Assembly: GCA_030037335.1 (NCBI GenBank)
Contig: JASHRN010000088.1
Location: 1-48,238, forward strand
Reading direction: 5' to 3'
Origin: Candidatus Acidiferrales bacterium
Lineage (GTDB): Bacteria > Acidobacteriota > Terriglobia > Acidiferrales > UBA7541
DNA length: 48,238 bases
Shown here: positions 43,213-48,238 of the stretch, piece by piece
Position numbering within the stretch: the stretch's first letter is position 1
Layout of the letters: every line of letters starts with the position of its first letter
The notes under the pieces: model-generated
The model's input: only the letters and a program-made list of their open reading frames with translations
What the model was told of the DNA's origin: nothing
Databases searched by the model: none
Translations under genes and position numbers: made by a program

Positions 43213-44508
43213 TTATTTCTCACGTTTAGCGATGGTTTGAATTTGAGCCGTGCGGTAAAGCCAATCAACTGCTTTGTCGCTGCGCAATTTCGATTTCATC
43301 CTATCGAGCGCGTCTTCCTTTGTCAAGCGCGCACGAATCGCTGCTACGGATTCGCCACTCCTCTCCGCGAGACTCGCGATCTCTTTTTCCACATCTTCGT
43401 CGCTCGCTTCGATTTTTTCCGCGTCCGCGATGCGATCCAGCAGGATTTCGGCCTTTACATCGCGTTCGGCGCGATCGTGCTGCCGCTGGCGAATGGAAAC
43501 CCAGTCTACATTCACCGCGCGCGGGTCCACTCCCTGCAGGGCGAGCGAACGAACTACGCGTTCGAGCCGCACGTCCATCTGATGCTCGATCAGCGCCTCC
43601 GGAACAGGGAAGTCGTGGCGCTTCACGAGCTCTTCCAGAATTTTCTCGTTGGCCTGCGCATGCTGCTGCTCGTCGCGCGCGGCATTGAGCCGTTCGCGGA
43701 TTTTTTCGCGCAGCTCCGCGAGAGTCGTCGCGCCTCCCGCGCCTTCGCCCAAATCCTTCACAAACTCGTCGTTCAGTTCAGGCAGCTTTCTCTCTTTTAT
43801 CGAGCGGACTTCGACCGCGAAGTTGTAGCTCTTGCCCTTCAATTTTGCATCCGGATAATCGTCTGGATATTTTGTTTCAAATCGTCGCGTTTCGCTCGGC
43901 GAAGCGCCGCGCAGATTTTCGCTGAACGCGGGCAGCGTCTCTTCCGCGCCAATGTGGCAGGTAACATTATCATTGCGAATCGGATCTCCGCCGCCCGCCG
44001 GCGTGCCCATCAACTTCACCTGAACATAATCGCCATCCTGCGCGGACCGACCCTCGACAGGAACATACGTGACGCCTCGCTGGCGCATTTCTTCCAGCGT
44101 CTTGTCGATTTCCGCGTCGCCCACGTCGATGGCTTCCACTTCGACTGTCAAATTCTTGTAGTCGCCCAGCTCGAATTCCGGCAGCACTTCGAACGTAGCG
44201 CGAAATTTCAGCGGGCCAGCTTCCGTGAAATCGACGTTATCGATTTGCGGGCGCGTTATGGGATTGAGCTTTTTCTCCGTGAGCGCTTGCTGAAGATATT
44301 CCGGCGCCAGCGACTCCAGCACCTCGCCTTTAATTTCCTCCGCGAATCGCCGGCGAATCAGCGTCACCGGCGCTTTGCCGGGACGAAAGCCGGGGATTCG
44401 CGCCACGCGCGCAAGGTCCTTCGCGATTTTTTCGGTCGTTTTCTGCACATTTTCCGCGGGAATCTCGAGGTCAATCTCTCGGCGGCAAGTTGCTGTTCCT
44501 TCAGTCAT
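43213..44508 (-). CDS. tig: Trigger factor (ribosome-associated chaperone/prolyl isomerase)
   Basis: I start at the ATG at 44508 ([20 protein letters not shown], 431 aa); the upstream extension of 16 residues has no homology to the family. The N-terminal ribosome-binding domain has [18 protein letters not shown] (the conserved GFRxGKxP signature). The middle part (about 150-240) is the FKBP-type domain, [11 protein letters not shown] onward, and the rest is the long helical chaperone arm. It binds nascent chains at the ribosome exit. It heads the tig-clpP-clpX-lon run. Confidence 0.95.
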
Positions 44509-44641: not shown

Positions 44642-44670
44642 AGTATAGGTGAATGCAACAAGCCCGTCAA
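44642..44670 (-). promoter_or_regulatory. Strong sigma70-type promoter for tig
   Basis: On the minus strand TTGACG (44665-44670) and TATACT (44642-44647) are separated by exactly 17 bases; each hexamer matches consensus at five of six positions. Transcription would begin near 44635, giving a leader of about 127 nt before the tig ATG at 44508. Confidence 0.65.
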
Positions 44671-44751
44671 CTTTCCGGCGGGATAGGATACAGAAGCCCG
44701 CAAAGTTGCACCCCCCCTGTGCTTGGAAACTTGTCAAAATGTGAGGCGAAC

Positions 44752-44865
44752 ATGCGCACGGGCATGAAGCGACGAGCTGTCGCAGGAGCGAGACCCGTTA
44801 GCGCCTCCGAGGGCCCGCACGCCGCCACAGTTTATGTCAGCAAAGGTAAGTTGTTAACGAAATAA
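44752..44865 (+). CDS. Possible small ORF just upstream of the nucleotide-binding-domain gene
   Basis: The frame encodes 37 residues (begins MRTGMKRRAVAGARP, ends VYVSKGKLLTK) and has GAGG five bases before its ATG. Its stop lies 8 bp before the next start codon, so it could couple translation. It could also be chance, or the shifted N-terminus of the next gene. No family is recognisable. Confidence 0.3.
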   Translation: MRTGMKRRAVAGARPVSASEGPHAATVYVSKGKLLTK

Positions 44866-44873
44866 AACATAAA

Positions 44874-45980
44874 ATGATACCCTTGCTGGCGGGGTTTTTG
44901 GCCGAATTGGAAGTGGTCGAGGTGAATACGGAAATGGTAAAGAAGGCAAGAGTTAAGTGGACTTTTCCTAGAGCATCCCTCGAACAGGCGCTAAGACTCC
45001 CGAATGCACTCAAGGATTTCAATGGCGGCAATCCGTGGGAACCAGAAGAAATCCGTAAAGCGATTAGTGTTCCGGGCGGCAATTCATATTTTTATCTCAC
45101 AGCCGCCTCGCGAGACTACGGACTCACCGTTGGCACGCGCGATGCAGACAAGATTTCACTGGCCGATCTAGGTCGTGAGCTTGTGTATGCAGGGAGTCCG
45201 TCAGCCGAAGCAGAGCTGAAGATGCGGGCCTTCCTGAACATAGATGTCTTCAAGAGAGTTTTGGAATATTACAAGGGCAGCAATCTGCCAGAGATGAAGT
45301 ACTTGGGTAACACCCTTCAGAAGGAATTTGAACTCGATCCCGAAACCCATGAAGAATTTTCGCGAATCTTTCGTGAAAATTGCAAATTTCTCGGAATCAC
45401 GTCTGGAACAGTCTTGACACCTGCGGACACGCCTTTACTTGATTCAACAACTCAGGCGACCCAGCCAGTCACAGTCACACTCGCCGAGGTCGGCGGTACA
45501 TCGAAACTAACCGCGTTCGTAATCATGCCTTTTGTGGAGCGCGACCCGAAGCACGCCACTGGCTTTTTCCCCGAAGTTCTTCGGAGTCTAATCACTCCGG
45601 CAGCGAAGGACTCGAACTTTAACGTAAAGACGGCGAACCGTCAGGGAAGCGATCTCATTCAGTCCACAATAGTGAATGATCTGCTGGAAGCAGACCTAGT
45701 GATTGCTGATCTGACTGAACATAATCCAAACGTGATGTTTGAACTCGGAATGCGCATGGCCGCAGACAAGCCTGTCGTATTGATCAAGGCGCTCGGAACG
45801 GGGCCTCTGTTTGACGTTGATAATATGTTGCGTGTTTTTGAATACAGCCCCAATTTATGGCAAACGACAATCGAGAAAGACCTCCCAGCATTGCGTGATT
45901 TCATAAAGGGAGCTTGGGAGAACCGGCAGTCTGACAAAACGTATGTAAAGATACTTCGCTCAAGAACAAAACCGACCTAG
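44874..45980 (+). CDS. Predicted winged-helix plus deoxyribosyltransferase/TIR-like nucleotide-binding protein
   Basis: The 368-residue protein has two parts. Residues about 25-165 look like a DUF5343-type winged-helix domain: FPRASLEQALRLPNALKDF, YFYLTAASRDYGLTVGT, ISLADLGRELVYAG and an F..VLEYYKGSNLP stretch. After a Thr/Pro/Val-rich linker (about 175-205), residues about 210-340 form a Rossmann-like domain: LTAFVIMPFVERDP, IQSTIVNDLLEADLVIADLT, then EHNPNVMFELGMRMAADKPV and VLIK. That ADLTxxNPNVxxELG pattern is shared by nucleoside 2-deoxyribosyltransferase-like and TIR-like proteins. The Glu of ELG sits where the catalytic Glu of deoxyribosyltransferases lies. NAD or nucleotide cleavage is plausible but inferred. 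Stops just upstream in frame leave ATG 44874 as the first ATG. Low GC. Confidence 0.72.
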   Translation: MIPLLAGFLAELEVVEVNTEMVKKARVKWTFPRASLEQALRLPNALKDFNGGNPWEPEEIRKAISVPGGNSYFYLTAASRDYGLTVGTRDADKISLADLGRELVYAGSPSAEAELKMRAFLNIDVFKRVLEYYKGSNLPEMKYLGNTLQKEFELDPETHEEFSRIFRENCKFLGITSGTVLTPADTPLLDSTTQATQPVTVTLAEVGGTSKLTAFVIMPFVERDPKHATGFFPEVLRSLITPAAKDSNFNVKTANRQGSDLIQSTIVNDLLEADLVIADLTEHNPNVMFELGMRMAADKPVVLIKALGTGPLFDVDNMLRVFEYSPNLWQTTIEKDLPALRDFIKGAWENRQSDKTYVKILRSRTKPT

Positions 45981-46031
45981 TTTTCGGGCCGCGTTTTAGA
46001 TTTTCGTCGCGTTCGGTGGGGGGCGAGCGAG

Positions 46032-48238
46032 TCACATCAATTTCAGTTTTCGCAGAACGGAACCAATCAATTCACGGTGTTTTCGATGCGGTCTACGTTT
46101 TCCTGTACGTGCGTAGATGAGAGTTCGTCGGGATAGACCGGATTCCTTTTTCAGCAGGGTTAACGATGTTTTTTGCAGGGCGGGTCTTATCTTTGTTTCC
46201 CACTCATCGCGCTTGGGATCAACATATTCCGTGTAAATGTCCGTTTCCGAGTGAACCAATCCAGATTCTACGTCCTCGATGAGATTTGATTCCTTTCCAA
46301 TGTATTTGATTTGGTCGATGCGAACATGCCGTCTCTGTAATAAGCCAATCGTTTGTTTTCCAGATGGACTTCCGTTGGCATCTGCATTCTTTGTTTCTGG
46401 ATGAAATTCATATTCTGTCAGCACATCGTTATGTGTTTTTACCCGCGCAGTGCGCCGGTCACCATGATACCCATTCGTTGTAATGCCGTATTGCTTGCCT
46501 GAATATCGGTCAATCCATTTCATTGTCAGCCATCGTCTCGGATCGGATTCGTAGGGAGCAATCAGGTGGAATTCTTCAGGATCACAGCCGATTGGATGGC
46601 CGAAAGCGTTTATGTGGCAGGATAGAAGGAAATTGAATGGTTTAATTTGATCTTCGTATGATTTGCTTTCATTAAATTTTGCAAAAGGCCGCAGTACGGA
46701 AGGACTGCTCACGGTTATGCGTCCGATTGCCGGAAGGTTTTCAAATCCGAGCTTCTTTGCACGCAATCCGAGGGCTTTCTGAATTATGTTTAGCCATACT
46801 TGCGCAATCCATTTGCGATCTTCTTTTTGGGGATCAATGGGATTGAGAAGATGGCCGAGTCCGTGTTCTGACCATCTGTCTTTCTTGTTGTTAATTTTCT
46901 TTTGAAGAAGGACGGGATTCCCTCCGGCATCAAGCAGAAAAGGTGCATATCGTTTTGCTGAAATCGCGACGCAATAGAGCTGCCTTTGTTTGTGGGTTAC
47001 GGGGTCATAGTTATCTTCTTCGATTTTAAGAATTGATTCTGGGACGGCATCTTTTTCGTATGGATTCATGGCGGCGAACTTGTTTTTAATATCGTCTACC
47101 TGATCCCAAGACAATGCTTTCACAGCTTCCCGATTATTTTTTATGCGCAATTTTCCGCCGGGACACGGAATTGTTCCATCATGCTCAGCTGCGACGATTG
47201 CCATTGAATCTGTATCTTCCATGACGTATGTACCACCCAGCTCCGCAACGGAATACTCCAACAATGACAGCATTAGGCGGGCTGCGCCCGTTATCAGGGA
47301 CGCCATCGGCGGAAAACAGTATTCGCCCGGCACTTCAGGGTGCGCTGTGTTACAAACAAATGATTCCTCATCGATGCCGTAACATTGGGTTCTTACTTTT
47401 GCGTCCGATTCTTGCCGAATCATCTCGGCATAAATCCCGTAGCTTGCAGAATTCGCGAGAACCTTCAAAGCTAAATTGAACCGCTCCTTTTCTATTTCTG
47501 AAAGGTCTGTCCGCGTTTTGAGCCGATTTCGCTCCTCAATGACTACCTTAAAGAAATCCTGAGTTCGAGGATCGACCTCCACAGCGCCGCGCAGCTTGGT
47601 GGGTTTGAGATTCGTTAGAATTCCGTGAGGTTCAATCCGAAACGCATCCACTATCTTGGGAATCTTGCCAGTGTGGAGGACAGAAGCAATTGCGTCCGGC
47701 AATGAAAACCAGAGCGCATCCTCAGAATCGCGATTTTTGGAGTAAAGATGATTTATTCCCACTTGCCAGTCGCGGCTGGCCGCATTGTAGCGGGTACGAC
47801 AGGGCAAGATGTCGCCATCGGGAATGACTTTTACAAATGCAGGCATGTGTTCCCAACTCTCAGGCTTAAATAGATCGGCGGGCTTCAGTTGTTCAAGAAA
47901 CTGAATAATTTCGCTTTCGCAGTGTTCGACCACCCTAATTTCGCGAGCAATCACAAACCGCCACAGCTTCATTAAGCTGTTCACGGTTGGATACATCGAA
48001 AGGAAATCGGTATAAACAATCGGCATCGGGACTTTGCGGATATGTGCGCTAGTTCGCCCGCCGAAAAACGAAGACTGCGCATAGCCGAGATACTCTTTTG
48101 GAAAATTGGGCTGACGTTTCAGGATTGGCTCGATTCCCATCTCTCGCAGATATGCCTTGCCGATTGAGGCGGGTGAATATGCTTTTGTGACTTGAAGGGG
48201 CAGATCGTGCCTGTCGTATTCTTCAAGCAGCTTGAACG
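46032..48238 (-). CDS. Family-B DNA polymerase with C-terminal helix-turn-helix, N-terminus outside window
   Basis: The frame is open to the last base: upstream of the Met at 48140 it continues with SPASIGKAYLREMGIEPIL, so that Met is internal and the gene is partial here. PolB catalytic motifs are all present: motif A YTDFLSMYPTVN (47979-48014), motif B NLALKVLANSASYGIY (47430-47477), motif C YVMEDTDSMAI (47196-47228) and a KKRY-like thumb motif SAKRYAPF near 46938-46961. Both carboxylates of DTDS are intact, so polymerase activity is expected. The 3'-5' exonuclease domain, if any, would be in the missing part. The C-terminus (46032-46163) has LLKKESGLSRRTLIYARTG, a helix-turn-helix. It is convergent with the nucleotide-binding gene, 51 bp apart, and low in GC. 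It differs from PolB replicases such as Pol II in context and tail. Confidence 0.85.
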   Translation of the reverse strand, partial: FKLLEEYDRHDLPLQVTKAYSPASIGKAYLREMGIEPILKRQPNFPKEYLGYAQSSFFGGRTSAHIRKVPMPIVYTDFLSMYPTVNSLMKLWRFVIAREIRVVEHCESEIIQFLEQLKPADLFKPESWEHMPAFVKVIPDGDILPCRTRYNAASRDWQVGINHLYSKNRDSEDALWFSLPDAIASVLHTGKIPKIVDAFRIEPHGILTNLKPTKLRGAVEVDPRTQDFFKVVIEERNRLKTRTDLSEIEKERFNLALKVLANSASYGIYAEMIRQESDAKVRTQCYGIDEESFVCNTAHPEVPGEYCFPPMASLITGAARLMLSLLEYSVAELGGTYVMEDTDSMAIVAAEHDGTIPCPGGKLRIKNNREAVKALSWDQVDDIKNKFAAMNPYEKDAVPESILKIEEDNYDPVTHKQRQLYCVAISAKRYAPFLLDAGGNPVLLQKKINNKKDRWSEHGLGHLLNPIDPQKEDRKWIAQVWLNIIQKALGLRAKKLGFENLPAIGRITVSSPSVLRPFAKFNESKSYEDQIKPFNFLLSCHINAFGHPIGCDPEEFHLIAPYESDPRRWLTMKWIDRYSGKQYGITTNGYHGDRRTARVKTHNDVLTEYEFHPETKNADANGSPSGKQTIGLLQRRHVRIDQIKYIGKESNLIEDVESGLVHSETDIYTEYVDPKRDEWETKIRPALQKTSLTLLKKESGLSRRTLIYARTGKRRPHRKHRELIGSVLRKLKLM

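Follow-up and report, generated by a model that had tools for sequence, protein, structure and literature searches.

A divergent family-B DNA polymerase in a bacterial accessory locus raises the question of what such an enzyme serves. The gene lies at one end of the window analysed here, a stretch of 48,238 nucleotides that constitutes the entire contig G000:C239 of a draft genome in 255 contigs, with a completeness of 87%. The host is an acidobacterium that shares its class with Edaphobacter and Granulicella. The original prediction, made from the sequence, offered the replicative or repair core of a mobile element, or a part of a defence system. Our analysis specifies the former: the polymerase is very probably the replicase of a Cas1-integrated self-synthesizing transposon (casposon) that is inserted in the promoter of tig and whose inferred cargo comprises CRISPR-Cas9 and a TIR-like gene.

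The truncated polymerase and its relatives

The polymerase gene (PolB; 46032..48236, minus strand) is an open reading frame of 734 codons, whose 5' end is cut off by the contig end. Motif A (YTDFLSMYPTVN; 47979-48014), motif B (KVLANSASYG; 47436-47465), motif C (MEDTDSMA; 47199-47222), and an AKRY motif (near 46947) were located in the predicted order, and the full-length relatives, which are about 1010 residues long, retain all four. These relatives also contain the exonuclease motifs DTET, GFNLPFDLSR, and YNRRD. The window PolB shares 63% identity over 728 residues with the full-length PolB of L012 and 84% identity with that of L135, a Candidatus Acidiferrales MAG locus. The latter is its closest relative, and the two were grouped at full support in the tree. 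The GC content of the gene (48%, as compared with 57% across the remaining contig) agrees with the low value noted earlier.

The AlphaFold model of PolB is of modest quality and weak confidence (mean pLDDT 57.5). Among the matches listed, it aligned solely with B-family polymerases (phi29, KOD, Pol alpha, and E. coli Pol II), with the phi29 polymerase as the best match (Z 11.1), consistent with the family-B assignment. The final ~55 residues were modelled as four helices with a pLDDT of ~80, in line with the predicted C-terminal helix-turn-helix (HTH; 46032-46200); the region preceding them has a pLDDT below 50 and is not interpretable. BLAST yielded no alignment between the HTH of PolB and that of the casposase described below, and we do not claim homology of the two. 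The original prediction had noted an unfamiliar C-terminal half. As a fused HTH is a known trait of casposon family 2 PolBs (PMC4046053), this half does not point to a new class, and the polymerase is neither an orphan nor the founder of a new polymerase class.

The window PolB had no significant match in Pfam or NCBIfam and no solved structure related by sequence, and its relatives had no more than a sub-family Pfam match (DNA_pol_B_2, about 1e-6). A weak match to PHROG 1907, a family of phage DNA polymerases (E 1e-5), would favour an origin from a prophage, a plasmid, a pipolin, or Pol II, without relation to casposons. Such an origin is extremely improbable, as no PolB relatives were detected in 50,697 phage records, 72,556 plasmid records, or IMG/VR, the exonuclease motifs are present (DTET / FNLPFDLSR / YNRRD), and no pipolin-type neighbour was seen. 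The relatives carry Cas1 and terminal inverted repeats, and the core genes beside their PolB included none recognisable as a tyrosine integrase. The casposase adjoining PolB in the complete loci of close relatives, together with the terminal inverted repeats and duplications, also contradicts an ordinary Pol II or prophage polymerase, the outcome that had been named as a refutation. Separately, a short PolB C-terminal segment (EYxxHPE...GLLQRR...GKE) was observed alone in several MAG contigs (L140-L146), mostly from Acidobacteriota and Eremiobacterota, and is perhaps a separate domain or the remnant of decayed copies.

Casposon genes and element ends

Relatives were sought in 396 genomes of the phylum, and close full-length ones were found. 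Every complete locus displayed the gene row HTH-HNH-PolB, with PolB last, divergent from a Cas1 of 507-526 residues. This Cas1 matched the Pfam Cas1 family (1e-44 and 6.5e-41) and the solved M. mazei casposase (PDB 6opm, 1e-22). Its catalytic E, H, and D/E residues are invariant, and it contains a four-cysteine motif (CxxC..CxxC) and a C-terminal HTH. Thus, the inspection of homologues' neighbours, as suggested in the original prediction, revealed casposase, HTH, and HNH genes, which together with PolB represent the casposon gene set (PMC4046053). In L012, L013, L075, and L076, all five genes are present: Cas1 and PolB, both with a C-terminal HTH, the HNH gene, and two HTH genes.

Within the window, the casposon occupies 44680..48238 and continues beyond the contig end. 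Its terminal inverted repeat (44680..44716, plus strand) has its outer end at 44680, from which the element extends rightward, and its 37 bp are identical to G000:C108:6558-6594. The repeat is bordered by a 14-bp target site duplication (GTCAACTTTCCGGC; 44666..44679), the exact reverse complement of which lies outside the terminal inverted repeat at G000:C108:6544-6557. The terminal inverted repeats that bound the relatives follow the pattern GGGATAGGAKAYAG...AARNTGC, and pairs of these with perfect 14-bp duplications were found in L012, L013, L072, L073, L075, L076, L077, and L129. The pattern occurred 60 times in 40 of the 399 genomes of the class, and its reversed control once. The terminal inverted repeat of MetMaz-C1 (GGGATATAGG...) also begins with GGGATA, and its duplication is 14 bp long (PMC10359463).

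Casposase and PolB therefore share one island in the relatives, and terminal inverted repeats with target site duplications delimit it, as is characteristic of the casposon superfamily. Because the relatives hold the casposase gene set beside PolB within such ends, we identify the polymerase as a casposon PolB. No casposase was found in its own draft genome, where the middle of the element, with the casposase, HTH, HNH, and PolB N-terminus, is unassembled. L135 displays the missing section (casposase, HTH, HNH, and whole PolB), and by analogy with the relatives, including L135, the casposase of the window element would sit in the assembly gap. The lack of a visible Cas1, pointed out in the original prediction, is an effect of the contig end.

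Named relatives occur in Edaphobacter lichenicola M8UP30, Granulicella sp. L46, many Terriglobia MAGs, Eremiobacterota MAGs, and one Gemmatimonadetes MAG. A word search of the literature returned no report of casposons in Acidobacteriota; both words occurred together in one paper, in which casposon appears once.

Several variants of the element were also observed. Full terminal inverted repeats enclose short elements that lack casposase and PolB in L077:2667-4973 (2.3 kb; 14-bp duplication) and L084:12058-14900 (2.8 kb; duplication with 13/14 matching), which are apparently non-autonomous casposons. At one tRNA-Gln promoter, L072:2699-11506 and L073:2715-11441 contain a casposon with a truncated casposase and no PolB, a decayed but inherited element; a scan of the L072 genes detected a type III restriction-modification system in it. 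A second terminal inverted repeat variant (GGGTAGGGGGATAGGGACG..AAAAGTGCAC) abuts normal ones at shared targets (L074:12968-12998, L019:3777, and L142:9286), which suggests that these promoters also serve as targets for a second, related family of elements.

Insertion into host promoters

Few bacterial casposons have been described, and the known targets of casposons are mainly the 3' ends of genes. In the window, the duplication ends at the -35 box (TTGAC; 44666..44670, minus strand) of the promoter of tig, with the -10 box (TATACT) at 44642..44647 (minus strand). The downstream host gene tig (trigger factor; 43213..44508, minus strand) is followed by clpP, clpX, and lon, and the homologous region is found in relatives. 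The element-free relatives L031, L034, and L035 possess the same tig promoter, with the same -35 box and 18-19 bp between the boxes. A model in which the target is a tRNA 3' end was dropped, as no tRNA gene was found in the window and the promoter was identified as the target.

The outer flanks of the elements start with GTCAA on one side or finish with TTGAC on the other. On the GTCAA side, 23 of 31 ends had a TATACT-like -10 hexamer 18 or 19 bp beyond TTGAC, which fits a -35 box with a normal spacer of 17-18 bp. When repeated sites were merged and ends abutting another terminal inverted repeat were excluded, 19 of the 22 distinct sites showed a -10 box at the right spacing. The 2,274 TTGAC words of these loci, taken as a control, gave rates of 3.5% and 2% (about 5%; binomial 1.5e-21). 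The genes downstream of the targeted promoters are tRNA-Ala, tRNA-Gln, tig, acetyl-CoA acetyltransferase (three genomes), nuoB, and rplU, with the protein genes named by reading their translations. The tRNA genes are struck on the 5' side, not at the 3' end, and both element orientations occur. As read from these genomic insertion sites, the acidobacterial casposon lineage targets host-gene promoters. The Eremiobacterota MAG casposon L129:214-15580, which has the same terminal inverted repeat start and a target without TTGAC, indicates that target choice varies within the lineage.

Because the duplication leaves TTGAC on each side of the element, the promoter of the host gene is rebuilt. Characterised casposases suggest, by analogy, how insertion would proceed: the casposase would attach the element's 3' ends to the two target strands at a distance of 14 bp and would read the core promoter as its 'leader'. 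The filling of the gaps would then duplicate N9-TTGAC, such that the promoter is restored and the gene stays expressed, and PolB would copy or repair the element. The promoter may be recognised by the HTH of the casposase or by the accessory HTH proteins. Other casposases generate 14-15 bp duplications, and their integration requires a leader as well as the initial bases of the segment that is duplicated (PMC6614799). Insertion into sigma-70 promoters that leaves them working could provide a natural tool for integration at a defined and safe target, and its parallel to the way in which CRISPR Cas1-Cas2 recognises leader and repeat can be tested. In its working, the targeting is similar to that of yeast Ty1/Ty3, which insert just upstream of tRNA genes, at the transcription machinery (PMC5911963); these are retrotransposons associated with eukaryotic Pol III, with no kinship by descent.

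Casposon family 2 (A. boonei AciBoo-C1 and M. mazei MetMaz-C1; PMC4046053, PMC6614799, PMC10359463) resembles the present elements in the C-terminal HTH on both Cas1 and PolB, the HNH gene, the HTH genes (two here), the 14-bp duplications, and the tandem insertion at one target. In contrast, its hosts are archaeal, its target is the 3' end of a tRNA gene rather than a promoter -35 region, and CRISPR-Cas9 cargo is not reported for it in the searched literature. Family 3 (AceAut-C1, NitAL212-C1, HenMar-C1, and StrAlb-C1; PMC4046053) is bacterial and intergenic, as here, with HNH and HTH genes, and the Cas1-zinc finger-HTH order corresponds to that described for AceAut-C1. It differs in that neither Acidobacteriota hosts nor promoter targeting are reported for it in the searched literature. 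The gene content, compared with the published descriptions, fits both families, and the elements may belong to either. Neither promoter targeting nor CRISPR-Cas9 cargo was found in the searched casposon literature.

Cargo and the CRISPR-Cas9 locus at the probable other end

At the window end, the element carries a cargo gene (44874..45980, plus strand) with a C-terminal TIR-like / nucleoside 2-deoxyribosyltransferase-like domain, and a similar cargo gene is located at L013:16909-18075. The whole assembly contains two terminal inverted repeats, and the only one besides that of the window is at C108:6558. The ends on the two contigs are identical in both the duplication (14/14) and the terminal inverted repeat (37/37). 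Host genes, including pheA, lie outside the C108 repeat, which faces cas9. One genome of the same genus has pheA and tig on a single contig, ~8 kb apart and in the same orientation; the C108 host flank had no DNA match beside tig in the relatives, and this pheA synteny in one genome is the sole support for the adjacency.

Inward from the C108 terminal inverted repeat, we identified a tracr anti-repeat just inside it (C108:6750-6769; 19/20 bases), cas9 (C108:6816-9962; RuvC_III, HNH, and Cas9_a domains), cas1, cas2, and a 36-bp CRISPR repeat at the contig end. The type II-C features seen are cas9, cas1, cas2, the anti-repeat, and the first repeat, at which the contig ends; the array and any gene further along, csn2 or cas4 included, would lie past this point. 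Related Cas9 loci of the class contain arrays of near-identical repeats, and therefore contig C108 breaks within an array. The matching duplication and the identical terminal inverted repeats, and not continuous sequence, link C108 to the window. A type II-C CRISPR-Cas9 system is thus probably part of the cargo of this casposon, in this one case and across an assembly gap.

Alternatively, the CRISPR-Cas9 system might be a chromosomal locus beside a solo terminal inverted repeat, not moved by the casposon. The assembly gap leaves room for this arrangement, and related Cas9 loci of the class are usually outside casposons; among the Cas9 loci in 299 genomes, only that of C108 has a terminal inverted repeat within 1.5 kb. 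However, this repeat faces cas9, the duplication next to it agrees with that of the window end, and the pheA-side host genes are outside it, which renders a chromosomal locus quite unlikely. The two ends could also belong to two tandem casposons at one target, with the C108 end (Cas9) from one and the window end (PolB) from another. Tandem elements sharing one target duplication exist at L013:3016/3031, L074:2149/2164, and L078, tandem casposons at one target have been reported for M. mazei (PMC9939771, PMC10359463), and the duplication would match for one element or two. Nevertheless, the window and C108 repeats are identical over 37 bp, unlike the two repeats within each of L012, L013, and L076, which differ from each other, and the assembly has two repeat ends only. 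We consider the tandem arrangement unlikely, and even then Cas9 would be within a casposon terminal inverted repeat.

In the favoured single casposon, the defence cargo would consist of a complete type II-C CRISPR-Cas9 system by the C108 end and the TIR-like gene at the window end. The suggestion of a defence function does not hold for the polymerase itself, but it applies to this defence-like cargo. Such cargo is recurrent, as several copies carry restriction-modification, methyltransferase, or TIR-like genes: a type III restriction-modification system in L018 and L072, a IIG-like enzyme in L075, and methyltransferases in L012 and L129. Tn7-like and CAST transposons (PMC8649781) similarly spare the host by their targeting and carry defence cargo; they differ in the transposase TnsABC and their own targeting. 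CAST use CRISPR for targeting, whereas the CRISPR-Cas9 in the casposon looks like complete immunity cargo.

Taken as a whole, the elements likely constitute a bacterial casposon lineage whose integrase targets the core promoter (-35/-10), rebuilds the promoter by duplication, and ferries whole defence systems, with a complete CRISPR-Cas9 and two Cas1 integrases in this copy. If so, casposons with CRISPR-Cas9 and restriction systems as cargo would act as vehicles of immunity, and one cell and one element would contain both a casposase and a CRISPR Cas1, where cross-talk is testable. It is accepted that the enzymes of CRISPR adaptation derive from casposons; an element descended from those ancestral transposons would now be moving CRISPR.

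As a side observation, a DarT/DarG-like pair (ADP-ribosyltransferase and macrodomain, read from the translation) is located at L135:8150-9917, just outside the terminal inverted repeat and downstream of the promoter targeted by the L135 casposon.
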